A stretch of DNA of 53,380 nt from Verrucomicrobiota bacterium (GTDB lineage Bacteria > Verrucomicrobiota > Verrucomicrobiia > Chthoniobacterales > Terrimicrobiaceae): assembly GCA_026398275.1 (NCBI GenBank), contig JAPLTF010000037.1, forward strand, positions 1-53,380, read 5' to 3'. The notes under the pieces were generated by a model, which was not told the DNA's origin, did no database searches, and was given only the letters and a program-made list of their open reading frames with translations. The translations under genes and the position numbers were made by a program. This document shows, one piece after another, positions 13,263 to 53,356 of the stretch. Every line of letters begins with the position of its first letter. The stretch's first letter is position 1.

Positions 13263-13466
13263 GATTTCTGTGACAAAAGAGCCCTCGGGCAAAACCACTT
13301 ATTAACAGCGTCCGCATTTTCTGATCGATCTTGTGGATCCCCGGGCCTCTCGGCACCGGACATCCTCGAAATGCCCGGCATTTTGAAAGAATTTCAGCCA
13401 GCCAGCGGGAGCTTGGAGGATTTTTGCGGCAATGGGCTCCAGGGTTTGCCAATATGGCGGCCTGAC

Positions 13467-16430
13467 ATGACGACACTTTCTTTTGAGCGATTGGGAGCCC
13501 GGATGTCCGGCGAGCTCGTGACTGGCGGGACGATGAGGAAGCTCTACGCGACCGATGCCTCGGAGTATCAGGAGATGCCGCTGGCGGTGGCATTTCCAAG
13601 AGACGAGACCGATGTGCGCGAGATCATCCTCTTCGCGAATGAGAACCGGGTCGGAATCATTCCGCGAACGGCGGGCACCTCGCTTGCCGGGCAGGTGGTC
13701 GGCGGCGGGATCGTGGTGGACCTCTCCCGGCACTTCGGGCGGATTCTCGACATCAACAAGGAAACGCGCAGGGTCCGCGTGCAGCCGGGGGTCGTTCGCA
13801 ACGAGCTGAATTTTGAGCTGGCGAAGCACGGGTTGTTTTTCGGCCCGGAGACCTCGACGGCGAACCGGGCGATGATCGGAGGCATGGTGGGGAACAATTC
13901 GTGCGGATCGAACTCGATCGTTTACGGAAGCACGCGCGAGCACCTCGTCTCGGTGCGCGGATTTTTCAGCGATGGAAGCGAGGGGGTGCTCTGCGGTCTC
14001 TCCCCGTCGGAGTTTGGGGACAAATGCCGGGAGGATGCGACGATGGAGGGCCGGATCTACCGCTCGATCCGGGAGATGCTTGGCAACGCCGGGAACCGGG
14101 GCCTGATCACGGAGAATTTCCCACAGAAATCCATCCCCCGCCGCAACACGGGCTATGCGCTCGACCTCCTGATGGATGCGGATGTTTTCGATCCGGAATC
14201 CCCGCAGGAGTTTAACTTCTGCAAACTCATCGCGGGTTCGGAGGGCACGCTTTTCTTCGGTCTGGAGTTCGAGCTCGATTGCAGCCCGCTTCCCCCGCCG
14301 CATGTCGCCCTGGTTTGCGGTCATTTTCATTCGGTGGACGAGGCGCTGCGCGCGAACCTTGTGGCATTGGATTTCGGCCCCTCGGCCTGCGAGCTGATCG
14401 ATCGTCACATCCTGGAATGCACGCGATCGAATCACTCCCAGGCCCAAAACCGGTCGTTCGTTGTCGGGGATCCTGGAGCTGTTCTGGTGGTGGAGATCCG
14501 GCGGGATCAGGAAGCAGAGATGGAGGCCGCTGTGGCGGCGCTGCAATCCGCCTGGCAGGCGGCGGGATTTGGCTATGCCACCCCCGTGCTGCGAGGGGCC
14601 GAAGGCAACAAGGTCTGGGAGCTGCGCCGTGCGGGGCAGGGGCTCATGAGCAATGTCGTCGGTGATGCCAAGCCGCGCGAGGTTGTCGAGGACACGGCGG
14701 TGGACGTCCACGATCTGCCCGCATATATCGCGGAGTTCAAAGCGATTCTTCAAAGTAAGTATGGCATCGGGTGCGTGTATTATGCGCATGCGGGAAGTGG
14801 CGAGCTGCACACGCGCCCGCTCTTTGACCTCAAGACCGAAGAGGGCCTGAAAACCTTCCGGGGCGTCGCCACCGACATTGCTCACCTCGTGAAAAAATAC
14901 CGCGGGTCGCTCAGCGGCGAGCACGGTGACGGACGGCTGCGCGGCGAGTTCATCCCGCTCATGGTCGGGCAGGAATGCTACGACCTGATGAAGGCGGTCA
15001 AGGCCGCGTTCGATCCGAACAACGTCTTCAACCCCGGCAAGATCGTGGACACGCCGCCGATGGACACGCACCTGCGCCACAATCCGGGCGCACCCACGCC
15101 GGAATATGAAACGGTCTTCGATTTCAGCGATGTGGCCGGCGTCGTCCGCGCCGCCGAAAAATGCAACGGCTCAGGCGACTGCCGGAAGTCGCACATGGCC
15201 GGCGGAACGATGTGCCCGAGCTACATGGCCACCCGCGAGGAAAAGCACACGACTCGGGCCCGCGCGAACATCCTGCGCCATATTCTCAACCATCCGGCCG
15301 ACGCGGCGAAGCCGTTCGACAGCGCCGAGATCAAGGAGGTGATGGACCTCTGCCTTTCCTGCAAGGCCTGCAAAAGCGAATGCCCTTCGAGCGTGGACAT
15401 CGCGAAACTCAAGGCGGAGTTCCTGCAGCACTATCACGATTCGCACGGAGTTCCGTTCCGCTCGCGGCTGGTCGCGGGATTTTCCGATGGCGCGCGGCTC
15501 GCCTCGATTGCCCCCGGGATCTACAACGCCATCTTTCAGACCCCGTGGATCCGCAAAGCCTTCAACAGGGTTGTTGGGTTTCATCCGGAGCGCACGCTTC
15601 CAAAAGTCAACCGCGTGACACTGCGGCACTGGCTCAAGGGCCACACTCCGCTGCAGCCGGTCGGCCGGCGGAACGGCCGCGTGCATCTCTTCTGCGATGA
15701 GTTCACCAACTACAACGACCTCGACGCCGGGATCGCCACGGTCGAGTTGCTGGAGCTTCTCGGCTACGAAGTCGTTTTGCCCGCACATGTCGAAAGCGGG
15801 CGCGCCTCGCTTTCAAAAGGCATGGTCCGCCGGGCGAAATCCTTTGCCGATAAAAACGTGCGGCTGCTCGCCCCGATGGTTTCGGAATCGGAGCCGCTCG
15901 TCGGCATCGAGCCGTCCGCAATTCTGGGATTTCGCGATGAATACCCGGTTCTGGTGGACCCCCCGCTGCGGGAAACGGCGAGAGCCCTCGCCCCGCACTG
16001 CCTGCTGCTCGACGAGTTTATCGCGCGGGAAGCGGATGCCGGGCGCATCTCCGGTGAGGTTTTTACCGACCGCGCTCAAACGATCCACCTTCACGGACAC
16101 TGCCATCAGAAGGCGACGGCCTCGCTGGATCCCACGATCCGGATGCTGACGCTCCCCAGGAATTACTCGGTAAAAATTATTCCGTCCGGCTGCTGCGGAA
16201 TGGCCGGCTCGTTCGGCTACGAGGCCGAACATTACGACGTCTCCATGAAAGTCGGAGAGCTTGTCCTTTTTCCGGCCGTCCGAAAGACATCCGCCGACGC
16301 CCTCGTCGCGGCCCCGGGAACGAGCTGTCGCCACCAGATCCACGACGGCACCAAAAGAAAGGCGCTGCATCCCGCCGAGATCCTGAGATCGGCATTGTGC
16401 GGGGAGGACGGCACGATGCCTGCGCTCTAG
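13467..16430 (+). CDS. fused FAD/Fe-S 2-hydroxyacid dehydrogenase (YdiJ/GlcD-GlcF type)
   Basis: The protein of about 987 residues fuses a GlcD-like flavoprotein with a GlcF-like iron-sulfur subunit. The FAD-binding PCMH domain shows P-R-T-A-G-T-S-L-A-G-Q (residues ~66-76) and a G-G-M-V-G-N-N-S-C-G-S segment. The FAD-oxidase C domain ends in LSGEHGDGRLRGEF. Two ferredoxin-type clusters follow: C-N-G-S-G-D-C with later C-P-S-Y, and C-L-S-C-K-A-C-K-S-E-C-P near residue 629. A CCG-type domain follows (S-G-C-C-G-M-A-G-S-F-G). Relatives oxidise D-lactate or D-2-hydroxyglutarate and pass electrons to the respiratory chain. The ATG at 13467 (M-T-T-L-S-F) matches the usual start of relatives; an in-frame ATG at 13371 adds an unlikely 32 residues. 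It is a stand-alone gene, convergent with the next. Confidence 0.85.
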   Translation: MTTLSFERLGARMSGELVTGGTMRKLYATDASEYQEMPLAVAFPRDETDVREIILFANENRVGIIPRTAGTSLAGQVVGGGIVVDLSRHFGRILDINKETRRVRVQPGVVRNELNFELAKHGLFFGPETSTANRAMIGGMVGNNSCGSNSIVYGSTREHLVSVRGFFSDGSEGVLCGLSPSEFGDKCREDATMEGRIYRSIREMLGNAGNRGLITENFPQKSIPRRNTGYALDLLMDADVFDPESPQEFNFCKLIAGSEGTLFFGLEFELDCSPLPPPHVALVCGHFHSVDEALRANLVALDFGPSACELIDRHILECTRSNHSQAQNRSFVVGDPGAVLVVEIRRDQEAEMEAAVAALQSAWQAAGFGYATPVLRGAEGNKVWELRRAGQGLMSNVVGDAKPREVVEDTAVDVHDLPAYIAEFKAILQSKYGIGCVYYAHAGSGELHTRPLFDLKTEEGLKTFRGVATDIAHLVKKYRGSLSGEHGDGRLRGEFIPLMVGQECYDLMKAVKAAFDPNNVFNPGKIVDTPPMDTHLRHNPGAPTPEYETVFDFSDVAGVVRAAEKCNGSGDCRKSHMAGGTMCPSYMATREEKHTTRARANILRHILNHPADAAKPFDSAEIKEVMDLCLSCKACKSECPSSVDIAKLKAEFLQHYHDSHGVPFRSRLVAGFSDGARLASIAPGIYNAIFQTPWIRKAFNRVVGFHPERTLPKVNRVTLRHWLKGHTPLQPVGRRNGRVHLFCDEFTNYNDLDAGIATVELLELLGYEVVLPAHVESGRASLSKGMVRRAKSFADKNVRLLAPMVSESEPLVGIEPSAILGFRDEYPVLVDPPLRETARALAPHCLLLDEFIAREADAGRISGEVFTDRAQTIHLHGHCHQKATASLDPTIRMLTLPRNYSVKIIPSGCCGMAGSFGYEAEHYDVSMKVGELVLFPAVRKTSADALVAAPGTSCRHQIHDGTKRKALHPAEILRSALCGEDGTMPAL

Positions 16431-16480: not shown

Positions 16481-19400
16481 CTACTTCAGCAGCTTCTCCA
16501 GCTGGCTGTCCGGCTTGGCCCCGAGTTCCAAAGCCTTGGCGTAGAATTTTTTTGCGAGCTGCTTGGAGGCCGCATCCCCGGAGGCGTGGAGGACGGCGAG
16601 ATTGAAGTGCGCCTCGGCGTAGGCCGGGCTGAGCTTCAGGGCTTTCTGGATCTCCTGGATCGCGCGCTCCCGGTCTCCCTTCTGCTCAAAGGCGACGCCG
16701 AGATAGTTGAAGGCCGAGGGATCGCTGGGATCGAGATAGACCGCGGTGAGCAGGGATTTCATGGCGGCATCGGCCTGGCCGGTCCGGAGAAGAATGATTC
16801 CGAGCGTCGTGTGCGAGAAGGCGTCGTCCGGGCTGATCGCGATGGCGTTGCGGATCGACTTCTCCGCGAGGCTCAGCCGGCCGAGCTCGAGCTGGACGGC
16901 GGCGAGGTTTGACCAGGCGAGGCTGTTGGTCGGTGCCCTGTCGGCGACCTGCTGGTAGAGGGTCTCGGCCGCCTCGAAATTTTTCGCCTGGAACTCCTTC
17001 TCGGCCCTGGCCTGAAGGATCTGCAGGGACTCCCCGGCGGGGAGGGCCGAGGTCGTCAGCACCGAAGAGGGCTCCGCGTTGTTGAGAAAGACCGGGGCCA
17101 CCTCGTTCAGGGAGAGCGGCGGCGGAAGCGTCAGCTGGAATGCCTGTGCACCGGCCTCGCCCAGGAGCTTCTCCAGCTCGAGGATCTTCAGGTCCCGCGT
17201 GGCGAGCTCGGTGAATAGATTTGAGATTTTGTCGTTCGCGAGATCCAGATCGGATTGGAGCTGGGTGATGAGGGCCATCTTCACCGGCTCGTCTTTTTCC
17301 AGTTCGAGCGCCTTGGCCTCCGCGGCCTCAAGCCGTTCGGAGAGGCTGCGGTTGCGATCGAGTGTGAGCTCCGTGTTCTTCGCGGTCTGGAGGCGGAGCA
17401 GCGTGTCGTTGAGCTGGGTGGCAAGCTGGGTGTTCTGCTCCTTGAGCTTGTCGAGCAGCTCGGCGTTGTTCCGGACGGCGGCTTCAGTGGATTTTTTTGG
17501 AAAGAGCTGGATCGCCAATACCGCGAGCGCGCACACGGCGGCAACCGACGCGAAGGCGAGCGCTTTCCGCGAGGAGGGACGCCTTCTTCTGGAATCCTCG
17601 AGCGAATGCGATACCTCGGCAAGCTGCCGCGAGAGGACGCGGTTCTGCCTCCTGGCCTCGTCGAGCTCGGAGCTGTGACGATCCAGGTTCTCCTTCAAAG
17701 TCTTGGCGGAATCGGCCTCGATTTGGGCAATTCTGGAGCGCAGCGAATCCTCCGACTTCCGGAATTCCTCCAGGACCCGCTCGTGCGAGACCAGGCGGAC
17801 CTTGAGGGACTCGGCGAGGGCCGCTTCGCCCCTGGCCTCCTCGAGCTGGGTGCTCAGATGTTTTTCCTTGGCGCGAAGTTCGGACAGCGACGCGGTCTGG
17901 GCGGCAAGCTCGGCCTGGAGCAACCCGACGCGGGCGGCATCGCGCCGGGCGGCTTCGAGCTCCACGGCGAGGGACTTTTCTTTCTGGCGAAGCGCCTCCA
18001 GATCCATCCTGCGGGCAGAAATCTCCTGGCGCAACGCCTCGGCATCCCGGCCCTGCACACGGGCGGCTTCCAGCTCCGCGAGCAGCGACTGCTCCCGCTC
18101 CTGAAGCGCCTGCAATGCGGCGCGCTGGTTACTCAAATCCTGGCCGAGCTTCTCCACCCGTCCGCCTTCGTCCCTTGCGGTCTCGAGCTCCCGAAGCAGA
18201 TCCGCCTCGCGCTGGCGGAGCCCGGCAAGCGTCAGCTTCTGCCCAGAGAGCTCCTGTTGCAGCTGATCCATCTGCCCCAGCCTGGCCTGCGCCACATTCA
18301 AGTCCCGTTGAAGCGTCTGCTCGCGGGAGCGGAGCGCCTCCACCTCGGCGCGCACCGAGACGAGGTCGTCCGTCAGCTTCCTAACTTCCGCCCCATCGAC
18401 GCGCGCCGAGTTCAGCTCCGCAACAAGCGAGGCCTCGCGTTGGCGGGAGGCTTCGAGCGCGGCCAGCTGGGCGGCGATTTGGATCTGAAGCCTTTCGGCA
18501 ACAAGCGCCTGAGCACGGGCGGAATCGATCTCGGAAAGCAGCTCCGCCTCCCGTCCGCTCTGGAGCGCAATCGAGGCCTGCTGCTCCTCAAGCTGCTTTT
18601 GAATGGCCTCCGCGCGGGCCGCGCGGGCATTGGCGGCTTCGAGCTCGGAAACCAAAGCGCCCTCGCGCTGGCGCAGGCCCTCGACGACGGTCCGCTGCGC
18701 GACCAGCTCGGCGCGGAGCTTCTCCGACTGGCCGGCGAGGATTCGCGCACTTTCGAGTTCGAAGGAAAGATGTTGCTCCCGCTCGCGCAGAGCCTCCATC
18801 GACTCCCGGTATCCGCTCAGCTCATCCAGCAGTTTGTCGGAGTGCACGGTCCCGCGGGATTCGGCCAATTCGGCGGAAAGCGACTCCTCCCGCCCGCGCA
18901 TCTCCTCGATCTCCGACCTCTGGGCGATCAGTTCGCCCTGCAGCGACTCGACAAGCTTGAACTGGTATTCTGCGGACTCCAGCCGGCTGGAGAGCGACTT
19001 TTCGCGCTCCTTCGAAACGAGGAGCTCCGAATGCTGCTGCTCCAGCTCCTCCTGCAGCTTGCGGGCCCAGACCCGTGAGGAATGCCCCCATTTCAGCTCT
19101 GCGCGCTGTTTGGCAAGCCGGCCCTCGAGCAAGCGGGCTCGCTCCTCAAATTTTTTCGCCGCGGCAAGCTGGTCCTCCAGCGCCTGCTCCCGCTTTCTGG
19201 ATTCCTCCAGCCTCGCCAGATGCTCCCGCGCTTCCGTCTGGAAGGATTGCGCGAGCGCGGTCTCCACATGGGCCTCCTCCAGGTGATGCGCCAGTTCCTC
19301 CCTCTGCTTCAGCAGCGCTTCCATCTCGGCTTTTTGCGCGTTCAGCTGCGACGATAGCGCCTCCACCCGGGCGGCTTCCTTCTTCGCGGACTCCAGCTCC

Positions 19401-19684
19401 GACAACAAGGATTTTTCCCGGCTGTGAAACGACTCAAGCGCCTCCTCCTGCTGCTGCGCCAACTCCACCTGAAACGCAAACGCCTGCCCCGCCTTGTTCC
19501 GCGTCTCCTCGATCTGCATCCGCAGAAAATCCTCGCGCGACTTCGCTCGGTCCAGCTCCGCCTGGATCACAGCCAATCGCTGGTCCGCAGTCAGCGGATT
19601 TTTTTCCCCCTGATCCCCATGAAACAAACCCGAACCTTCTGCCGGGAAATAATCAGGATCTTTCTGCGAGTTCATAAAGGACAT
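16481..19684 (-). CDS. membrane protein with 38-residue coiled-coil repeats and C-terminal TPRs
   Basis: The 1067-residue protein has no family name I can give. Residues ~46-640 are made of consecutive units of nearly always 38 residues. They have the pattern xLRxREx-L-xxELExAR-x9-L-xxEL-xxQ-xxLE, with about 15 units, one of 37 and one cut to 24 residues. A basic stretch (D-S-R-R-R-R-P-S-S-R-K) and a single membrane span (~709-728, FASVAAVCALAVLAIQLF) follow. After that come another coiled coil (~740-860) and four to five TPRs (~905-1060, with A-W-S-N-L-A-A-V-Q-L-E-L-G-R and N-Y-L-G-V-A-F-E-Q-K-G-D). The positive-inside rule puts the long coil in the cytoplasm and the TPRs outside. An envelope scaffold or tether is plausible. 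It stands next to, and divergent from, the exopolysaccharide initiation gene. Confidence 0.75.
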   Translation of the reverse strand: MSFMNSQKDPDYFPAEGSGLFHGDQGEKNPLTADQRLAVIQAELDRAKSREDFLRMQIEETRNKAGQAFAFQVELAQQQEEALESFHSREKSLLSELESAKKEAARVEALSSQLNAQKAEMEALLKQREELAHHLEEAHVETALAQSFQTEAREHLARLEESRKREQALEDQLAAAKKFEERARLLEGRLAKQRAELKWGHSSRVWARKLQEELEQQHSELLVSKEREKSLSSRLESAEYQFKLVESLQGELIAQRSEIEEMRGREESLSAELAESRGTVHSDKLLDELSGYRESMEALREREQHLSFELESARILAGQSEKLRAELVAQRTVVEGLRQREGALVSELEAANARAARAEAIQKQLEEQQASIALQSGREAELLSEIDSARAQALVAERLQIQIAAQLAALEASRQREASLVAELNSARVDGAEVRKLTDDLVSVRAEVEALRSREQTLQRDLNVAQARLGQMDQLQQELSGQKLTLAGLRQREADLLRELETARDEGGRVEKLGQDLSNQRAALQALQEREQSLLAELEAARVQGRDAEALRQEISARRMDLEALRQKEKSLAVELEAARRDAARVGLLQAELAAQTASLSELRAKEKHLSTQLEEARGEAALAESLKVRLVSHERVLEEFRKSEDSLRSRIAQIEADSAKTLKENLDRHSSELDEARRQNRVLSRQLAEVSHSLEDSRRRRPSSRKALAFASVAAVCALAVLAIQLFPKKSTEAAVRNNAELLDKLKEQNTQLATQLNDTLLRLQTAKNTELTLDRNRSLSERLEAAEAKALELEKDEPVKMALITQLQSDLDLANDKISNLFTELATRDLKILELEKLLGEAGAQAFQLTLPPPLSLNEVAPVFLNNAEPSSVLTTSALPAGESLQILQARAEKEFQAKNFEAAETLYQQVADRAPTNSLAWSNLAAVQLELGRLSLAEKSIRNAIAISPDDAFSHTTLGIILLRTGQADAAMKSLLTAVYLDPSDPSAFNYLGVAFEQKGDRERAIQEIQKALKLSPAYAEAHFNLAVLHASGDAASKQLAKKFYAKALELGAKPDSQLEKLLK

Positions 19685-19825
19685 TAAGAATTAATACGCA
19701 GATCATGCGAAATATCGTAACCGACTGCAAGCCAATTGTGCAACCGGATGAAAAAAGGAGTTCTTGAGATTTTTTTTTGATAAGCGAAGATGCATGCTTG
19801 TCCGATTTGAAGCAAATAATCCCAT

Positions 19826-21223
19826 ATGTTCCAGTATCGTGAGCTTGGTTTGATTCAGCTGTATCAAATCGGCGTCACGCTGGTGATGAGCGTTTTGTTT
19901 TGGGGATATTTCCTGATCCTGGACAACTTGGTTCCGGGGTTTTCTCTGATGGGATTTTCGACGTATCTCGAGTATTTTCTGGCGATCACGCTGGGGTTTC
20001 AGCTCTCGTTCCTGAGTTCGAAGCAGCACGATATCTTTTCCGTGACGTCGGGGATCATGGAGAGCCACCGCTTCATCTGGCCGCACATGGTCTTTGCGAC
20101 GGCGATCACGTTCATGTTTGCGTTTTTGAAGCGGGACGAAGCGATCTCGCGGCTGTTTCTTTTCACGTATATTCCGCTGACGTATGTCGTGCTGGTGGTG
20201 ATCAACCGCTATTTCGCGCTGAACATCCTGAGGAGGTGCCTGCACCACCAGAGCCAGAAGCTTCTGCTCATAGGCCGGCCGGAGGAGCTGCCGAATGTCG
20301 AATCCCTGCTCTCGAAGGCGAAATTGTTCGGGCTGGTCACGGCCGGCATGCTGACGGAGGCGGACGAGCTGCCCGAGGGCATCAGGAAGCTCGGCGGGCC
20401 GGACGATCTGGAGCAGGTTTTGGACACCCACGACATCGGGAACATCTTCATCATCGGGAGCCCGAGAGACCGCCGGTGGCTTGGCGGGTGGATGCGGCTG
20501 GCCGAGGCCCGAGGGTGCAGAGTCTCGATGGTGAACGACCTGGATGTCTTTCTCCAGAGGCGGCTTTCCTTCTTCCGCTGCGACAACATCGACATGATCG
20601 AGCTCCGCGAGGAGCCGCTCCAGAACGCGATCAACCGCATGGTCAAACGGACGTTCGACATCTGCTTCAGCCTGGTGGTGGTCGTCTTTATCCTGCCGCC
20701 GCTGATCCTGCTGGTGTGGATCTTCCAGAAGCTGCAGGCCCCGGGCCCGCTCTTTTTCAAGCAGAGGAGATCGGGGCTGCACAACAATCCGTTCACGATT
20801 TTCAAATTCCGCACGATGTATGCCGACCAATGCGAGTCCTCCCGCCAGGTGACAGCAAATGACGGGCGGGTTTTTCCGGCGGGGCGCTGGCTGAGGAAAT
20901 TCAGTCTCGACGAGTTTCCCCAGTTTTTGAACGTGCTGGACGGCCAGATGAGCATCGTGGGCCCGCGGCCACACATGCCGGAGCATGACGAGGTCTTCGA
21001 GGAAACCATGGCGGCCTACCGGATCCGCCACTTCGTCAAGCCGGGCCTGAGCGGGCTGGCGCAGATCCGCGGGTTCCGGGGAGAGGCAATGTCGAAGGAC
21101 CACATCGTGAGACGCGTCGAATGCGACATCGAATACATCGAGACGTGGTCGCTGCCGCTGGATATCCGGGTGATCTGGCGGACGCTGATCGATGTCCTGC
21201 GGCCGCCGAAATCCGCCTACTGA
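19826..21223 (+). CDS. polyprenyl-phosphate sugar phosphotransferase (WcaJ/Wba type)
   Basis: The 465-residue protein starts exopolysaccharide synthesis by moving a sugar-1-phosphate to undecaprenyl phosphate in the inner membrane. It has four N-terminal membrane segments and a soluble domain with a Rossmann-like strand (KLLLIGRPEELPNV). A fifth hydrophobic segment (FDICFSLVVVVFILPPLILL) leads into the catalytic core. The core shows the family hallmarks F-K-F-R-T-M, S-L-D-E-F-P-Q-F-L-N-V-L, M-S-I-V-G-P-R-P and V-K-P-G-L-S-G-L-A-Q. Length and order fit the full-length WcaJ group. It converges on the GT4 operon, and the two stop regions overlap by 7 bp. The sugar, glucose or galactose, cannot be told from sequence. 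Confidence 0.9.
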   Translation: MFQYRELGLIQLYQIGVTLVMSVLFWGYFLILDNLVPGFSLMGFSTYLEYFLAITLGFQLSFLSSKQHDIFSVTSGIMESHRFIWPHMVFATAITFMFAFLKRDEAISRLFLFTYIPLTYVVLVVINRYFALNILRRCLHHQSQKLLLIGRPEELPNVESLLSKAKLFGLVTAGMLTEADELPEGIRKLGGPDDLEQVLDTHDIGNIFIIGSPRDRRWLGGWMRLAEARGCRVSMVNDLDVFLQRRLSFFRCDNIDMIELREEPLQNAINRMVKRTFDICFSLVVVVFILPPLILLVWIFQKLQAPGPLFFKQRRSGLHNNPFTIFKFRTMYADQCESSRQVTANDGRVFPAGRWLRKFSLDEFPQFLNVLDGQMSIVGPRPHMPEHDEVFEETMAAYRIRHFVKPGLSGLAQIRGFRGEAMSKDHIVRRVECDIEYIETWSLPLDIRVIWRTLIDVLRPPKSAY

Positions 21224-22299
21224 TCGAAGAGCAGGCGGGTCATTTTTTCCACAAAAGCCTCCCTGGAAAACAGCACCGCGTGAGCGCGGATGGCGTCCCG
21301 GTTCCAGGATGTCTGCTCGCACCGGCTCACGGCCTCAAGGAATCCCTCCTCGGATGCGTCGGTGAAAAATACGCCCGTGAGCCCGTCGACAACGGTTTCC
21401 AGCGCCCCGCCCCGACCGAGCGCGATGACAGGTTTTCCGCAGGCCATCGCCTCGACGGGCGTGATTCCGAAATCCTCCTCGCCGGGCAGGATGAGGCCGC
21501 GGCATTTTGAGTAGTGCTCGTGGATTTCCCGGTCTCCCATCCGCCCGCAAAACCGGATCGATGGTCCGGCCATCTCCTCGAGGCGCTCGCGATAGGGCCC
21601 CTCCCCGATCACCACTAGGCGTTGCCCCGTGCGGGTGAACGCCCGGACAGGCAGCTCGATATTTTTGTAGCCGAGCAATCTGGAGACCACGAGGTAGTAG
21701 CCTTCCTCGGCGGCGGACACATGGAACCGTGAGGTTTCCACCGGCGGGTGGACGACCAGCGAGTCCAGGCCGTAGCATCGCTTGACCCGCTCATGAACAT
21801 TCCGGGAATTGGCGACAAGGACATTCATCCTGGATGCGGCTTCACGGTCCTTCTCGCGAAGCCCCGGAAGAACGCGGCGGGCGAACCCGTTCACCAGGCG
21901 CGCGCCGAACTCGTATTTCAGGTAGTCATCGGTCTGCCACAGAAACCTCGTCGTGTTGTGCATGTAGCAGACGGTCCGCGTCCGCGGCGGAAACCGGAGA
22001 TACTTCGCAAACGTGCTGGAGCTGATCCAGGCGACATCCGCATCGATCTGCCCGAACGAGCGGAACGCGAGCGGATAGAGCGCGACGTATTTTTTGAAGT
22101 GGACGCTGTCCTGGACGAACGGGAGATGCTGCATCCATGACGTGCGGATATCCGCCCGGCGGAACTCCTCCCAGAGCCCGCTGTAGCGGCAGACGCTCGT
22201 GAAGATCGGCGCATCCGGAAAGCTCTCGTGCATCGCGGCGACAACCCGCTCGGCGCCCCCCATCTGGATGAGGTAATCATGTGCGAGCGCGAGTTTCAT
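21217..22299 (-). CDS. GT4-family glycosyltransferase
   Basis: The 360-residue protein has a GT-B fold. The N-terminal domain begins M-K-L-A-L-A-H-D-Y-L-I-Q-M-G-G-A-E-R, and the middle has Y-Y-L-V-V-S-R-L-L-G-Y-K-N-I. The C-terminal nucleotide-sugar site has the E-x7-E motif in E-D-F-G-I-T-P-V-E-A-M-A-C-G. N-terminal M-G-G-A-E-R is typical of GT4 enzymes in polysaccharide loci, several of which use GDP-mannose; the donor here is not certain. It is the last gene of the minus-strand operon, and its start overlaps the previous stop by 4 nt. Confidence 0.85.
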   Translation of the reverse strand: MKLALAHDYLIQMGGAERVVAAMHESFPDAPIFTSVCRYSGLWEEFRRADIRTSWMQHLPFVQDSVHFKKYVALYPLAFRSFGQIDADVAWISSSTFAKYLRFPPRTRTVCYMHNTTRFLWQTDDYLKYEFGARLVNGFARRVLPGLREKDREAASRMNVLVANSRNVHERVKRCYGLDSLVVHPPVETSRFHVSAAEEGYYLVVSRLLGYKNIELPVRAFTRTGQRLVVIGEGPYRERLEEMAGPSIRFCGRMGDREIHEHYSKCRGLILPGEEDFGITPVEAMACGKPVIALGRGGALETVVDGLTGVFFTDASEEGFLEAVSRCEQTSWNRDAIRAHAVLFSREAFVEKMTRLLFDQ

Positions 22300-23453
22300 C
22301 GGGAAGTGATTCCGGACAAGACGATGTCAGTTTTTTGGAGCACCGTGGACAGGGAATAGTTTTTTTGGGCCATGTCCAGCGCAAGCATTCCCGCTCCCCG
22401 CCCGCGATCGGGGAGGGCGAGGACGTTTTGCAGGGTCAGGGCGAGGCTGGCGGCATCGCCCGGCAAAAACAGCCAGCCGGTTTCGCCATCGCGGATGATC
22501 TCCTCCGGACCGCCTGACCGGCTTGCAATCACGGGCTTTCCGGAAAGCATTCCCTCCACGACAACCCGTCCGAACGGCTCGGGCGCGACCGATGTGTGCA
22601 CGATGATATCCGCAGCCTGCATCAGCCGGGGAATATCCTCCCGCTGGCCAAGAAATTCCACCCGTCCCGCCAATGCGGGAGAGGAGGCGAGCGCCCGCAA
22701 CTCGCCGGCATAGCCGCGGTCGTCACCGGTGAAAAACGGGGCGCCGACAATCCACACCTTGAGCCCGGGAATTTGCGCCGCCGCCCGCAGAAGGACGTCC
22801 TGACCTTTCCAGCGGGCGATCCGCCCGAATACGGCGGCGACCGGCCCGGTGCCTGAATGAAATTCCTGCCGCGCCGCAAGAACCTCGCCAGGCGGAAACG
22901 GAGCAAATTGGGCAGGGTCAAATCCATTCGGGATCACATGCACCGGAGCTTTTCCGCCCGCAGCAACGCAGGCCGCCGCGGTGGCTGTTGAGTTGGCGAT
23001 GACCGCCGTGCATTGGTTGGCGGCCTGGACAATCAGGCGGATGTTCAGCCGGCTGAAGTGCTCCGAGGTCAACAGATCATGCAGGTGGAAGACGGCAGGC
23101 TTGCGGAGCCCGAGCCCGGCGGCGACCCCGTAGAGGAGAGCCTTTGCCGTGTTGAGATAAACCAGATCCGCGTCCCGGATTTCCTTTCGCAGCAAGCCCA
23201 GAAACCCTGCCAGCTCGGGAAGCGCGCGGAGGTGGTCCCCCATTCCGGCCTCCTTCGTGATGGCGGACAAACTCCGCGGCGCGTCGATCACCGATACCGG
23301 GACGTCCCGCTCCCGAAGGATCTCCTCGAATCGTCCGCGGGAAAAAAGCAGAACCCGCGAGCGGCCGCGATAATTTCCGGCGATATCCGCCAGGCAAAGC
23401 TCCGCGCCGCCGGGCTGGCCGCTCTGATCCAGAAAGAGAATTCGTCCGCTCAT
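22296..23453 (-). CDS. GT4-family glycosyltransferase
   Basis: The protein is about 385 residues with a GT-B fold. It begins M-S-G-R-I-L-F-L-D-Q-S-G-Q-P-G-G-A-E-L and has FGRIARWKGQDVLLRA. The E-x7-E motif sits in P-E-P-F-G-R-V-V-V-E-G-M-L-S-G-K-P. I chose the ATG at 23453 because it overlaps the stop of the preceding GT gene in an ATGA arrangement; the longer frame to 23537 would overlap by 88 nt. It adds a sugar to the lipid-linked repeat unit at the cytoplasmic face. Donor and acceptor are unknown. Confidence 0.85.
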   Translation of the reverse strand: MSGRILFLDQSGQPGGAELCLADIAGNYRGRSRVLLFSRGRFEEILRERDVPVSVIDAPRSLSAITKEAGMGDHLRALPELAGFLGLLRKEIRDADLVYLNTAKALLYGVAAGLGLRKPAVFHLHDLLTSEHFSRLNIRLIVQAANQCTAVIANSTATAAACVAAGGKAPVHVIPNGFDPAQFAPFPPGEVLAARQEFHSGTGPVAAVFGRIARWKGQDVLLRAAAQIPGLKVWIVGAPFFTGDDRGYAGELRALASSPALAGRVEFLGQREDIPRLMQAADIIVHTSVAPEPFGRVVVEGMLSGKPVIASRSGGPEEIIRDGETGWLFLPGDAASLALTLQNVLALPDRGRGAGMLALDMAQKNYSLSTVLQKTDIVLSGITSR

Positions 23454-36200: not shown

Positions 36201-37319
36201 GTGAGTCAGGAATCCCCCACAGTCGAGGTTGGCGAGCAGCAGGAAATCCACACGCTCGACCATGTCGATCAATATCTCATGATCGGCAAGGAGTCGGACG
36301 CATCCGACATCCATCTGAGCGTGAACTCGAAGCCCATCTGGCGGAGATACGGCATTTTGGAAGCCATCTGGAACCAGGCCCCGGTGCTCACAGCGGCGGA
36401 TACCGAGCGGCTGGCGATGGGGTTTCTGGATGACAAGCAGAAGCAGCAGCTCGCGGAGCGCGGCGACGTGGACTTCGCCTACTCGAACAGCCTGGGCCGT
36501 TTCCGGACGAGCGTCGTGCGCCAGCGGATCGGGCACGATCTGGTTTTCCGAATCATCAACAGCCGCGTCCGCAACATGGACGAGCTCGGCCTGCCGCCGC
36601 AGCTGAAGCTGCTCACCCAGTATCAAAACGGGCTGGTGCTGGTCACCGGTTCGGTCGGCAGCGGAAAAAGCACCACCCTGGCGGCGCTGGTCGACGAGAT
36701 CAACCGCCACCGGCAGGATCATATCATCACGCTCGAGGATCCGATCGAATACGTGATTCCCTCCAAGGGCTGCCACGTCACCCAGCGCGAGGTCCACACG
36801 CATACAAAATCCTTCGGCAACGCGCTGCGCGGTGCCCTCCGCGAAGATCCGGACGTGATCATGGTCGGGGAAATGCGCGATCTGGAGACGATTTCCCTGG
36901 CGATCACAGCCTCCGAGACCGGGCACCTCGTGCTCGGCACGCTCCACACCAGCAATGCCGCCCGCACGCTCGACCGCGTGCTCGACGTTTTCCCGACCGA
37001 CCAGCGCGACCAGATCCGCATCATGGTGAGCGAGTCCCTGCGCGGGGTGATTTCGCAGCAGCTCATTCCCCGCGCGGACGGCACCGGGCGCGCCCTGGCC
37101 ATCGAGATCCTCATGAACACGCCGGCTGTCGGCAACGTGATCCGCGAATCGAAGACCTTCATGCTCCCGGGCATCATCCAGACCGGGCGCAAGCTCGGCA
37201 TGAGATTGATGGACGATTCCCTGACCGAGCTGTTTGAGGCAGGCATCATCTCCGCCGAGGAAGCGGTCTACCGGGCCGATCAAAAAAACCAGATGATGCA
37301 GGTCACGGGGCACCACTGA
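36201..37319 (+). CDS. type IV pilus retraction ATPase, PilT type (first copy)
   Basis: The 372-residue protein belongs to the GspE/PilT ATPases that pull pilin subunits out of type IV pili. The N-terminal PAS-like domain has A-S-D-I-H-L-S-V and R-Y-G-I-L-E-A. The ATPase core shows Walker A G-S-V-G-S-G-K-S-T-T (Ser in place of the usual Pro), the Asp box T-L-E-D-P-I-E-Y-V, Walker B V-I-M-V-G-E-M-R-D and the His box G-T-L-H-T-S-N-A. The start is GTG at 36201. It is followed after one base by a second PilT-type gene, so the two may form a mixed or alternative retraction motor like PilT/PilU. Confidence 0.85.
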   Translation: MSQESPTVEVGEQQEIHTLDHVDQYLMIGKESDASDIHLSVNSKPIWRRYGILEAIWNQAPVLTAADTERLAMGFLDDKQKQQLAERGDVDFAYSNSLGRFRTSVVRQRIGHDLVFRIINSRVRNMDELGLPPQLKLLTQYQNGLVLVTGSVGSGKSTTLAALVDEINRHRQDHIITLEDPIEYVIPSKGCHVTQREVHTHTKSFGNALRGALREDPDVIMVGEMRDLETISLAITASETGHLVLGTLHTSNAARTLDRVLDVFPTDQRDQIRIMVSESLRGVISQQLIPRADGTGRALAIEILMNTPAVGNVIRESKTFMLPGIIQTGRKLGMRLMDDSLTELFEAGIISAEEAVYRADQKNQMMQVTGHH

Positions 37320-49146: not shown

Positions 49147-50808
49147 TCAGAATCTCATCCCGAGCGACATGCCGCTGGTGTTGCTCATGTAGTTGTTCCC
49201 CTGCGTGTCGTTCATCTTTTGCTGGAGGTTGTTGAAGAGCCTGAGGTTCACCTCGTCGGTGAGCATGTAGGAAACCGACAGGTTGGCCTGCACGAAATTG
49301 AACGTCCCGGTGTTCTGCCCCGACAGCGACACATTTTCCACCCGGCCGGCGGAGAGCCCGCCATCCAGCGTGGTGGTGTGGGACAACCTCCACGATGCCG
49401 CAGTTTCCACGCTGGTCGTGATCTGCAGGTTTCCCGAGTTGAAGGCATCCATGTCCACGCTCCGGAAAAACCGCAGCGAGACATAAGTTTTCGACGACGC
49501 TCTGTAGATGGCGGAGAGGTTGATGACCGAAGTCGAGGCCGAGGACGAGCCGCCGGCGGTCGAGCTCGACTGGCGGAACTCCAGCCCGCCCTCGCCCCGG
49601 ATGACAATCTTCGATGTCGGATTGTAGAGCAGGCGCAGCAGGAAGGATTCCGAGGTGGTCATTCCCGTGGCCGAATAAAAATAGCTCAGGGCCATTCCCG
49701 CGCCGACAGTCGTCTTGCTGGAATACTTGTAGTCGACCGAGGCATTGAGCGTTCCCTGGAACTGCTTCCCGCCGGGGTTCGAGTCTGTCACTCCCCCGCT
49801 GAAGCTCAGAATCGCATCGGTTTTTCGTGTGAGCGCATAGCCGCCGAAGATCTGGACGAAGACCGCCTTTTGCTGCGACTGGCCCTGGCTGTTGAGGAAG
49901 AGTCCGCTCTGGGCGAGGTAGCTGGCATCGAGGCCGACCCGCAGCTTCGACCAGCGGTAGCGCGAGCTGAACATAAACGCCTGGTTCACCGAGTTGAGCT
50001 GCTTGTATTTGGCATACTGGAGGACGCTCGGGGACCAGAGAAATTGCATGGTCCCCTTTTTTCCGGTCTCCAGATAGACCGTCGGTTGCAGGGTCATGAT
50101 CATGTCCGCCCGGGGATTCTTGCTCGCGCCGAAGACGTTGTTGTTGTAGGCGGCCGAGGCCTCCACCGACACGCCGTAGCGGACGCGGCTGTTGCCGATG
50201 GAAAACGACCGCTTGGCGTTGAGGAAGCGGGGGGCTCCGATGGTTCCGAGCGGGCGGTTCTGCGGCGATGGGCCGAAGGCTTCCATGGGCAGGCCGGTCA
50301 TCGAGGGGCCTGCGATGTTTGGGATTTCGAGCGAGGGGAGCTGCTGGTTCGGCGCGGCGAGCGGGGCCGCCTCGAGCCCGGTTTGCAGAGAGGGAGCAGC
50401 GAGGTTTGGGGTGCTGAGGTCCGCCTCCAAGGGTTTCGTGTAGGCGGAACCGCTGCCGTCGCCAACCACTCCGGGAAAGGCGCGGCCTTGGAACAGGTCA
50501 TTGCCGTCAATGATCGGCGGGCCGAAGTCCGGCTCCTTTGCCAGCTTGAGAGATTCAAGGCCATCCAGGACATTCGGAGTGCCGGGCGGGGGTGCGGCGG
50601 TTGACGAGGCGGTGCCGCTGGCATCCGGCGATCCGTTCGTCGTTGCGGTTGACGAGGCTGACGGCTGTTCCGGCGCAGCGGCCGACTGCGCGAGGGCGGG
50701 CACTGCAAACGCAAGACAAAGCGCCAGCGCAGCGCATGAGATCAGCAGCGCCTCTGTGCGGGCGCTACGGCCTTTGAGCGACAGGAAACACATTGCGTGT
50801 GCACGCAT
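49147..50808 (-). CDS. outer-membrane beta-barrel protein of the polysaccharide locus
   Basis: The protein has about 553 residues. It has a signal peptide (L-L-I-S-C-A-A-L-A-L-C-L-A-F-A-V-P-A-L-A-Q), a Pro/Ala/Ser-rich linker to ~residue 190, and then alternating amphipathic strands (R-V-R-Y-G-V-S-V-E-A-S, T-L-N-A-S-V-D-Y-K-Y-S). The C-terminus ends in M-S-L-G-M-R-F, the aromatic end expected for BAM-dependent barrels. It resembles barrel proteins found in polysaccharide loci (BBP2-like). A role in exporting or shaping polysaccharide is inferred from its position between a Wzc-like gene and a GT gene. The ATG at 50808 is preferred over the long extension to 51027, which overlaps the previous gene. 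Confidence 0.75.
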   Translation of the reverse strand: MRAHAMCFLSLKGRSARTEALLISCAALALCLAFAVPALAQSAAAPEQPSASSTATTNGSPDASGTASSTAAPPPGTPNVLDGLESLKLAKEPDFGPPIIDGNDLFQGRAFPGVVGDGSGSAYTKPLEADLSTPNLAAPSLQTGLEAAPLAAPNQQLPSLEIPNIAGPSMTGLPMEAFGPSPQNRPLGTIGAPRFLNAKRSFSIGNSRVRYGVSVEASAAYNNNVFGASKNPRADMIMTLQPTVYLETGKKGTMQFLWSPSVLQYAKYKQLNSVNQAFMFSSRYRWSKLRVGLDASYLAQSGLFLNSQGQSQQKAVFVQIFGGYALTRKTDAILSFSGGVTDSNPGGKQFQGTLNASVDYKYSSKTTVGAGMALSYFYSATGMTTSESFLLRLLYNPTSKIVIRGEGGLEFRQSSSTAGGSSSASTSVINLSAIYRASSKTYVSLRFFRSVDMDAFNSGNLQITTSVETAASWRLSHTTTLDGGLSAGRVENVSLSGQNTGTFNFVQANLSVSYMLTDEVNLRLFNNLQQKMNDTQGNNYMSNTSGMSLGMRF

Positions 50809-50815
50809 GGCCGGG

Positions 50816-53356
50816 TCAGGGGGCTTTGCGCCAGGTTTCCGCGGCGTGAAGCATTTTGGTGCTGGCCTGATCCTCGGTGAGGCCCGCCTGGACGAGGCGC
50901 TTGAGCAACTCCTGGAACATGCGGTTTCGCTCCTGGCCGGCCGCGGAGGCATCGTGCCGGGTATTGATGGAAAGTTCGTTTCGCCAGATTTTGAGCGTGA
51001 GCAGGAGCTGCTGCCGGGCCTGCTCATGGGTCATTCCTGAGGATTTGAGCAGGGTGATGAGCTCGCCGAAGATTTTCCGGCGGACGGCACCTTCGTCCGA
51101 GGCGTCCCGCCGCTCGTCGAGAGCGGGAACGAACACGCACCCGCAGGAGCATTTCCGCTTCATGTTTCTGACAGGGCCCACGGAGGTTCCGCCTTCATCT
51201 GTGGTCTGCGCCAGGCATGCGGAAAGGCTGGCGTAGGATTTGCCGCAGGCCGGACAGGAAATCCCGGAAGCAACGCTCATCGCGGGCTGGTAGTCAGGCT
51301 CCAGGCCCGCCAGCGGGCTATGGAAGGGCCGCGGGGCGAAATTGAGCACGACGCCCGAAATCCGCGCAGCGGAGCGACGCAGCAGCTCGAGCGCCCGCTT
51401 CGAGGCGGCCTTCGGGGTTTTTCCCGAGCGGATGACGAGGCAGACAAACGGGAACAGCCGGGCAAACGAGAGCGTGTCGCTTACGATTGCGACCGGAGCC
51501 GAATCCACGACGATCTTATCATAGAGCGGCTTCGCTTCGGTGAGAAAATCGAGAATTCCCTGCCGGGTGATCGTCTCCGCAGGGAACGGGCAGGGGGTTC
51601 CGGCCGAGACGATGTCCAGATTCGGCAGCGTGGTCGAGTGGATGGCACTGGGGAGTCCGCACTCCCGCTGGAGGAAGTTTGAGAGGCCGTCGCGGCCTCC
51701 GTTTCCGAAGACGATTCTCTCCAGCGAGGGCTGCCGGAGGTCGGCATCGACCAGCAGCGTCCGCTGCCCGGCCTGCGCCATGGCCACGGCCAGGTTGACG
51801 GCGCAGAACGACTTGCCCTCGTCCTCCACGGCGCTCGCAATCAGGATGAAATTTCCGGCCTCCTCCTCCTCGAGCACACGCAGGGCCGCGCGCAGCGAGC
51901 GGATCCCCTCCGCCGTGCTGGAGAACTTGTCCGTGATGGCGGGGCAATTTTCCCATGAGGAACCGGCGGGGTTGTCCTGCGGGGCGTCCTTTGTCGGAGA
52001 ATATTCCGGGATGGCGCTGAGCACGGACAGTCCGAGGAGCTGCTCGGCTTCCTCGGGCGATTTGATGCTCGAGTCCAGCTGCATGAGGAGAAAAATGATG
52101 CCGAACCCGGCGGCGAGGGAGGCGACCAGGGCGGCCCCGAGAAGCTTGAGCGCCTTCGATCCGGAGGGGACTCCCGGGCCGGCGGGGTTGACAACCTGAA
52201 GGAGGACCGGCTGGCTGCGCGCCTGGCTGAGCTCCTCGGTCAGGCGCTTGATGGCGGAATCGTAGGCCTGGCGGTCGGCGTCGATCTGCCTTTGCAAAAC
52301 GTTCGACGGAACCGAGAGGTCGCGGACCTGGATCACCTTCTCTTCCTGCAATGCCCGCTCCTTGAGGAGCCCCTCCTCCTTTTTTCTGGCCCCGGCGAGC
52401 GCGGACTCCGCCAGCTTCGGAGCCGAGAGGATCGCGGCCCGGAGTGAGGCCTGCAGTTCCTTGAGCTCGGACTGCGCCTGCCGCATGTAGGGGTTGTCCT
52501 CGCGGTAGCGGAGCGCCAGCTTGGCGAGCTTGTTGTTGCTCTCCGCGATCTGGGCGTTCAGCGAGACGATTGAGGGCATCCTCTGGACGCTGTCGATCTT
52601 GATGAGCTTGTCGGGGTCATCCTGGCAGCCCTGGATCTGGGCCATGTCGCTTTCAATCCGCAGCCTCTCCGTCTTGGCCTCGGTGCTCCGCGAGTCGAGT
52701 TCCTTGAGCTGGTTGGCAACGATGTTCATGTCCCCGTCGATCGATACGTTTCTCAGCGTGCGCGTGTAGGTATTGCGCTTCTCCTCGGAGGTCCGGAGGT
52801 TTTCCTCCATCTTTTTCACCTCGTCCTTGAGGTAGCGGATGTTGACGCCCACGGCCGAGATCCTCTGGTCGCGGTCGTATTCGATCCCCTGGTCCACGAT
52901 CATGTTGCAGATCCGCTGGGCCATGATGGGATCCGGGTTGGTGAACGAGATCTGGATCAGCCGTGTGTCCTGGATGAGATGGACCGCGCTTTCCTTCATC
53001 AGGTAGCCCGCGATGGCGTCGTCATTGAGCTTGCTGAGCGGCCAGCCGCCGAGCGTGAGTGAGTCGAGTCCGGCGGATTTGATCTCCTGCACGACGCGTT
53101 TGATGAGCATCGGGTTGACGAAACTTTTCTCAAGGGTCTTGAGGTCTTCGGGATAGGGCGCTCCCTCCACCGTGAGGGGGCTGTTGCTGAGCGAGATCGC
53201 AGCAGTCGAGGAGCGGCGCTCAATTTTGAGGTCGGAGGTTGCCACGAATTCCGGCTTGGAAATTTTGACCAGATAGACGCCGACACCGATGCCGATCAGG
53301 AGGCAGGCGACCGGGATCCACCAGAGCCTCAGGGAGGTCCGCAGGAAGCCCGCCAT
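50816..53356 (-). CDS. Wzc/ExoP-like chain-length and BY-kinase-like protein with unusual C-terminus
   Basis: The protein has 846 residues. The Wzz-like part has a span at ~11-30, a periplasmic coiled-coil region and a span at ~403-425 after a Pro-rich motif (P-A-G-P-G-V-P-S-G-S-K). The ATPase part has E-D-E-G-K-S (511-516), L-L-V-D-A-D-L-R (534-541) and I-V-V-D-S-A-P (615-621) as Walker A, A' and B. Residues 701-704 (C-P-A-C) and 736-740 (C-S-C-G-C) look like a zinc site. Two similar helical units (759-795, 810-845) follow. No tyrosine cluster is present. It likely controls chain length. The N-terminus could extend beyond the right window edge, because the frame is still open. Confidence 0.8.
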   Translation of the reverse strand: MAGFLRTSLRLWWIPVACLLIGIGVGVYLVKISKPEFVATSDLKIERRSSTAAISLSNSPLTVEGAPYPEDLKTLEKSFVNPMLIKRVVQEIKSAGLDSLTLGGWPLSKLNDDAIAGYLMKESAVHLIQDTRLIQISFTNPDPIMAQRICNMIVDQGIEYDRDQRISAVGVNIRYLKDEVKKMEENLRTSEEKRNTYTRTLRNVSIDGDMNIVANQLKELDSRSTEAKTERLRIESDMAQIQGCQDDPDKLIKIDSVQRMPSIVSLNAQIAESNNKLAKLALRYREDNPYMRQAQSELKELQASLRAAILSAPKLAESALAGARKKEEGLLKERALQEEKVIQVRDLSVPSNVLQRQIDADRQAYDSAIKRLTEELSQARSQPVLLQVVNPAGPGVPSGSKALKLLGAALVASLAAGFGIIFLLMQLDSSIKSPEEAEQLLGLSVLSAIPEYSPTKDAPQDNPAGSSWENCPAITDKFSSTAEGIRSLRAALRVLEEEEAGNFILIASAVEDEGKSFCAVNLAVAMAQAGQRTLLVDADLRQPSLERIVFGNGGRDGLSNFLQRECGLPSAIHSTTLPNLDIVSAGTPCPFPAETITRQGILDFLTEAKPLYDKIVVDSAPVAIVSDTLSFARLFPFVCLVIRSGKTPKAASKRALELLRRSAARISGVVLNFAPRPFHSPLAGLEPDYQPAMSVASGISCPACGKSYASLSACLAQTTDEGGTSVGPVRNMKRKCSCGCVFVPALDERRDASDEGAVRRKIFGELITLLKSSGMTHEQARQQLLLTLKIWRNELSINTRHDASAAGQERNRMFQELLKRLVQAGLTEDQASTKMLHAAETWRKAP

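Follow-up and report, generated by a model that had tools for sequence, protein, structure and literature searches.

A genus-specific Verrucomicrobiota membrane protein with a 38-residue coiled-coil repeat, genetically tied to exopolysaccharide synthesis and tentatively read as a trans-envelope scaffold

Long bacterial coiled coils that depart from the heptad are represented by Scy and FilP, in which a long, hendecad-based repeat is not a multiple of seven. PgaA, PelB, AlgK and BcsC are located at the outer membrane in synthase-dependent systems and are not known to carry a cytoplasmic coil. The TPR domain of PgaA is described as a periplasmic scaffold for polysaccharide export (PMC9384988). 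In PodJ, the cytoplasmic coiled coils are followed by a single membrane span and then by a periplasmic TPR domain (PMC8980812). With regard to coil geometry, it has been reported that continuous coiled coils tolerate no strain larger than that of a stammer, and that most known non-heptad coils deviate in the opposite way (PMC4786415). Among solved dimers, a survey found neither 3+3 nor 4+4 decompositions for periods over 15 (PMC9369452); it covers structures only, so that unreported sequences may exist. Our literature search for a 38-residue coiled-coil repeat, or for a link of coil, TPR and exopolysaccharide in Verrucomicrobia, found nothing.

The gene described here lies in a window of 53,380 nucleotides, the whole stretch of DNA that was analysed, at 16481-19684 on the minus strand (the strand of all its parts given below). 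It is an open reading frame of 1067 aa, with the second highest codon-usage score in the window. Position 19675 is more likely than 19684 to be the true start, since both orthologs begin at a Met aligned with residue 4. The original prediction could not match the whole protein to a named family, and the searches agree with it: only the TPRs exceed Pfam or NCBIfam cut-offs. The match to SMC was confined to the coil and reached 25 bits versus an equivalog cut-off of 567, and the SpiroCoCo coiled-coil protein scored 18 bits versus an NCBIfam domain cut-off of 75. PilW (60 bits versus 154), Tgl (38 versus 225) and MamA (51 versus 200) likewise stayed far under their NCBIfam equivalog cut-offs.

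Self-comparison of residues 21-700 gave an identity of 0.257 at lag 38, for which z is 14.5 relative to shuffles; harmonics follow at lags 76 (z 10.7) and 114 (z 8.4). An iterated gapless profile found 14 units, scoring 21-40 versus a largest shuffled maximum of 8.2, which form an array at residues 92-646 (17747-19411). The units start at residues 92, 130, 168, 230, 268 (profile hit at 267), 305, 343, 381, 419, 457, 495, 533, 571 and 609. The spacing between profile hits is exactly 38 in 11 of 13 cases and 62 and 37 in the remaining two. About 15 units with two exceptions had been predicted, of which the period and the exceptions stand and the count is corrected to 14. The spacing of 62 corresponds to a 24-residue insert between units 3 and 4 (residues 206-229, 18998-19069), which is shared by the three orthologs and overlaps the strongly conserved stretch 192-216. 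Within the sole 37-residue spacing lies a conserved hinge (residues 277-282, 18839-18856) with Gly or Pro in three species, and the rod begins with a conserved N-terminal tip at residues 42-91 (19412-19561). Control coils from the same genomes, namely the paralog family and SMC, showed mostly lags of 7, 14, 21, 28 and 35; lag 38 rose to a z of about 4 in just two paralogs and was absent from SMC.

The 38-residue repeat exists at the protein level only, and it is judged to be old because TRF found no tandem repeat in the DNA and the units have a mean pairwise identity of 45% in nucleotides and about 30% in protein. This protein identity holds at every separation, and no higher-order or graded duplication was found among the units, whose similarity is flat against separation. 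The composition of the unit was tallied over 42 units from three species. Large hydrophobics occupy positions 2, 6, 19, 23 and 30 in 93-100% of units and position 33 in 76%, positions 9 and 16 are Ala or Ala/Val, and position 37 is Glu. When positions 13 and 26 are read as core too, the core spacings are 4-3-4-3-3-4-3-4-3-4-3. In our reading the unit would comprise four heptads plus one decad, with the stammer (the 3-3 step) at positions 13-16-19.

Fourier analysis of residues 305-646 placed the hydrophobic peak at 3.453, 3.453 and 3.454 in the three species, close to 38/11, with a power of 4.5-5.4 at 38/11 versus 0.06-0.21 at 3.5. Both sequence marks of an overwound coil, a 3-3 core spacing and a mean core period below 3.5, are present. 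Because the hydrophobic period is 38/11 = 3.4545, the cytoplasmic coil should be, and probably is, overwound; a simple geometric estimate suggests a left-handed supercoil and shortens its pitch from 14.5-18.6 nm to about 11-13 nm. The phase shift in each unit and the unusual supercoiling of the original prediction are thus borne out, the former as a three-residue stammer and the latter as a prediction from this stammer and the core period. It is quite improbable that the coil is an ordinary one, a generic spacer that arose by tandem duplication of a 38-residue segment and whose period is mechanically meaningless. Evenly diverged units about 30% identical are what an old expansion would leave, but large hydrophobic residues persist in 76-100% of units at core positions 2, 6, 19, 23, 30 and 33 against a background of drift at the other positions; all three species share the 3.4545 peak, hardly any power lies at 3.5, and no unit has been gained or lost.

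Gly and Pro are enriched at unit positions 13-14, and the three breaks of the coil in the AlphaFold model (277-282, 431-433 and 545-548) all fall at unit positions 10-16. Since the helix breaks sit at the unit stammers, regularly spaced weak points are plausible, in line with the bends or kinks that had been proposed. The structure models, which are of single chains only, show continuous helices, one membrane helix and five TPRs; for the full-length protein the confidence scores are low (pLDDT 67, pTM 0.26). The charge pairs 5-10, 22-27 and 29-34 of the unit are attractive and almost never repulsive, and they would favour a parallel in-register pair of chains. The overwinding might serve pairing specificity, weak points or resistance to tension; stammers can make pairing specific in that the partner needs the same phase, and the resistance of left-handed coils to tension is named in the same survey (PMC9369452).

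The same coil could also belong to a membrane-anchored former of IF-like filaments of the FilP, Scy or crescentin type, whose rods would associate laterally, with staggers at multiples of 38, into a cytoskeletal submembrane mesh unrelated to polysaccharide, which we think unlikely. The coil is long and regular, with an Ala/Leu core and ordered charges, and long-period coiled-coil repeats were reportedly described in Scy and FilP by Walshaw in 2010 (cited in PMC6599971), but the charge profile favours no axial stagger at 38 or its multiples, and the linkage of the coil gene to WcaJ (see below) would be left unexplained. To our knowledge, IF-like proteins have neither a membrane span nor a periplasmic receptor domain.

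Beyond the array, hydropathy and the predicted model place a single hydrophobic transmembrane helix at residues 707-727 (17504-17566), preceded by an Arg-rich stretch. The net charge is +3 to +4 before the span and -1 to +1 after it in three species. Because the side before the span is the more positive in all three, the N-terminus is placed inside, and a single-span protein with N-in, C-out topology is strongly supported. The TPRs are placed in the periplasm because the homologous TPR domains of a class-wide family follow signal peptides, as we read them from the N-termini in this genus and near relatives. These positions agree with the predicted single span and outward-facing TPRs. The idea that the 38-residue array crosses the envelope was not upheld, as the positive-inside charge and the periplasmic homologous TPR domains place it in the cytoplasm; the periplasmic part would be only a separate 114-residue stalk, a linker and the TPRs. 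The cytoplasmic coil has about 667 residues, or about 99 nm if fully extended, and the 114-residue helix in the periplasm is about 17 nm long.

The helical stalk (residues 732-845, 17150-17491) is a single helix in the model and is 68-80% invariant. It is followed by a flexible linker (residues 846-883, 17036-17149) that is disordered in the model and holds a conserved Pro-rich stretch (LPPPLSLNE, APVFLNN), and by five TPR repeats (residues 887-1053, 16526-17026) recognised by Pfam and the models, with a capping helix at 1060-1066. PF13414 (69 bits) and PF13431 (68 bits) score above gathering. A model built on 18 sequences shows the 114-residue helix, the disordered linker and the five TPRs, as five helix pairs, at pLDDT of about 88-97. 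Foldseek matched the TPR domain to PDB structures at E 4e-10, closest to designed TPRs, OGT and MamA; this similarity is as expected of any TPR.

Full-length orthologs were found in two other species of the same genus, with 72% (G005) and 59-60% (G004) identity, on the MAG contigs JACSRU010000073 (Chthoniobacterales) and QYQL01000078 (labelled Verrucomicrobiaceae). Both have the same 14 units and both exceptional spacings (62 and 37), so that the length and number of the units are kept in these close relatives. From about residue 40 to 1067 there are zero indels in every ortholog pair at 57-72% identity, whereas paralogs in the same species are 70-78% similar yet have two to five indels, and other genes of the locus have up to three. 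Length locking of the coil protein is suggestive rather than proven, because SMC arms are also nearly indel-free. Units at the same position are far more alike between species (mean identity 0.51-0.64) than different units (0.29-0.30), so the array was already complete when the species split. Its middle (367-516) is the least conserved part of the protein, with 16-32% of residues invariant, and has drifted in sequence with its length kept. Invariance in the three species is 72-80% in the tip 42-91 and the stretch 192-216 (76% in the latter), 68-88% in the stalk and linker start (742-866) and 44-80% in the TPRs.

A golgin-like distance ruler or tether, which fixes a cytoplasmic structure (an internal membrane, the nucleoid edge or a ribosome-free layer) off the inner membrane and has its polysaccharide neighbours by chance or co-regulation, is also unlikely. 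About 1027 residues free of indels at 57-72% identity, a least-conserved middle and a conserved tip are what it would predict, but SMC arms are likewise length-locked where distance-setting is not required, and weak points at the stammers together with the hinge lower the likelihood of a stiff ruler. Of the ruler, spacer or envelope tether named in the original prediction, the ruler is backed by length locking only, and the locus context points to an exopolysaccharide scaffold and not to a generic tether.

With a profile of the coil, matches among 213 genomes of the order and 388 of the phylum occurred only within the genus, in which three of four genomes have the cytoplasmic coil; the same profile gave no match in the PDB. 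The TPR-domain family is class-wide (163 of 384 genomes at E 1e-30), and its members in this genus and near relatives start with signal peptides. It includes L002 (G000:C96:49195-52971) and its relatives, an exported family of Verrucomicrobiia of about 590-1300 aa, laid out as signal peptide, N-terminal helical module, coil and C-terminal TPRs, and without an NCBIfam name beyond TPR-type matches below cut-off.

Divergent from the coil gene lies a gene for a WcaJ-type undecaprenyl-phosphate sugar-1-phosphate transferase (19826-21223, plus strand), the polysaccharide initiation gene of the original prediction. All three genomes with the coil gene show this arrangement: G005 has it at C13:17925-19325 and 19474-22668, and in G004 the coil contig carries the first 113 residues of WcaJ. 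The fourth genome of the genus (G006) has neither coil nor WcaJ. Nearby genes of the locus encode a Wzy-type polymerase, GT4 glycosyltransferases, a Wzc-type autokinase and an EpsL-like protein. In G005 the order is WcaJ, coil gene, EpsL-like gene (384 aa) and Wzc-type gene. The window has its Wzc-type gene (50816-53356, minus strand) at the opposite end of the contig. Three genomes of other genera of the family (G003, G007 and G008) have WcaJ without the coil, and there WcaJ adjoins the Wzc-type gene and an unassigned gene of 470-536 aa, located between the two.

Several other genes were recorded along the contig. The Wzc-like autokinase has about 170 extra residues beyond its kinase domain, and the periplasmic part of its G005 ortholog is unrecognised by Pfam. 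Directly downstream of it, 49147-50793 (minus strand) encodes 548 aa without a Pfam or NCBIfam match. Convergent with the coil gene is a fused FAD-linked oxidase and Fe-S (GlpC-like) protein (13371-16430, plus strand), which is YdiJ-like and well under the equivalog cut-off. A PilT-type pilus ATPase over the family cut-off (36201-37319, plus strand) lies near the exopolysaccharide cluster.

The intergenic region between the coil gene and WcaJ (19685-19825) has a block conserved in three species with the inverted repeat CGCA-N5-TGCG at 19697-19709, which may serve the two divergent genes as a common operator. A second, TGCA-rich element is also present in the region, and no sigma-70 promoter was found there. 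Elsewhere in the window the block did not occur above chance. Near WcaJ of coil-less relatives it was not found; only a TTATGCAACC-like piece precedes WcaJ.

The safest statement is an anatomical one: this genus-specific N-in membrane protein combines a long, probably overwound coil in the cytoplasm with a TPR receptor in the periplasm, and has a genetic tie to exopolysaccharide synthesis. For its function, our tentative reading, to which we give a probability of about 0.45, is a trans-envelope scaffold of a Wzy-type exopolysaccharide machine. Two chains would form a parallel in-register dimer, in which matching stammers would force exact self-pairing and fix the rod length. The periplasmic TPRs would bind a peptide or an export component of the polysaccharide machine, possibly out to the outer membrane, and the N-terminal tip and the 192-266 region would bind a cytoplasmic partner such as synthesis enzymes, the Wzc-type kinase or a positional marker. 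In this way the scaffold could gather the polysaccharide apparatus or set its place, much as PodJ acts on polar complexes. The reading is supported by the topology, the unit charges, the structure models, the neighbouring polysaccharide genes and the likeness to PodJ and PgaA, by the conserved ends with a drifting, indel-free middle, and by the linkage to WcaJ in 3/3 genomes and the absence of both genes from the fourth, an association that rests on four genomes of one genus. The three genomes of other genera count against it; as they hold WcaJ without the coil, the coil is not needed for the pathway as such. A wider proposal, which is rather doubtful, is that the periodic stammer, with 11 turns per 38 residues, overwinds the coil evenly into a left-handed rope in which stammer phase sets self-pairing, register and regularly spaced flexible joints, and that a single genus recruited this rope as a length-defined cytoplasmic organiser of exopolysaccharide assembly by linking it across the membrane to a TPR receptor of older origin in the periplasm; it would be the first example.

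Compared with known systems, the coil protein is like Scy and FilP in having a coil of long repeats whose length is no multiple of seven, but these have another, hendecad-based period and, as far as we know, no membrane span or TPR. PgaA-type scaffolds (PgaA, PelB, AlgK and BcsC) differ from it in being synthase-dependent, at the outer membrane and without a cytoplasmic coil. The likeness to them is a periplasmic TPR domain in a polysaccharide system (PMC9384988). An overwinding three-residue insertion is shared with stammer or decad coils such as L1ORF1p (PMC4786415), but coils of that type hold isolated stammers, whereas the coil protein has one per 38 residues, about fourteen times. Stammers and long non-heptad bacterial coils are known already; an array with one stammer per 38 residues was not found among the described periods. 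A coil over-twisted at such regular intervals is hardly described, and about fourteen evenly spaced stammers offer a ready test object for whether overwinding can spread along a rod and whether stammer phase governs partner choice and register.

The class-wide coil and TPR proteins (e.g. G000:C96:50695, 725 aa) have homologous C-terminal TPRs, with 40-49% identity for the closer members, but they bear signal peptides, are wholly exported, have an ordinary heptad coil, show several indels between species and are unlinked to WcaJ in the loci read. The likeness to PodJ, the polar scaffold of Caulobacter, is the same order of parts, compared by the description of PodJ; one long periodic coil here stands against six coils plus a disordered client region there. 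No Pfam match to a PodJ-type C-terminal peptidoglycan-binding domain was found at E up to 10 in the three orthologs, and Sel1-type periplasmic repeats reached 10.7 bits versus a curated cut-off of 30.7. PodJ has a peptidoglycan-binding domain and the coil protein does not; the latter is built like PodJ but is not a member of its family. The comparison suggests that Verrucomicrobiota may have their own coiled-coil/TPR scaffolds, reaching from the cytoplasm to polysaccharide export, independent of the PodJ solution of Alphaproteobacteria.
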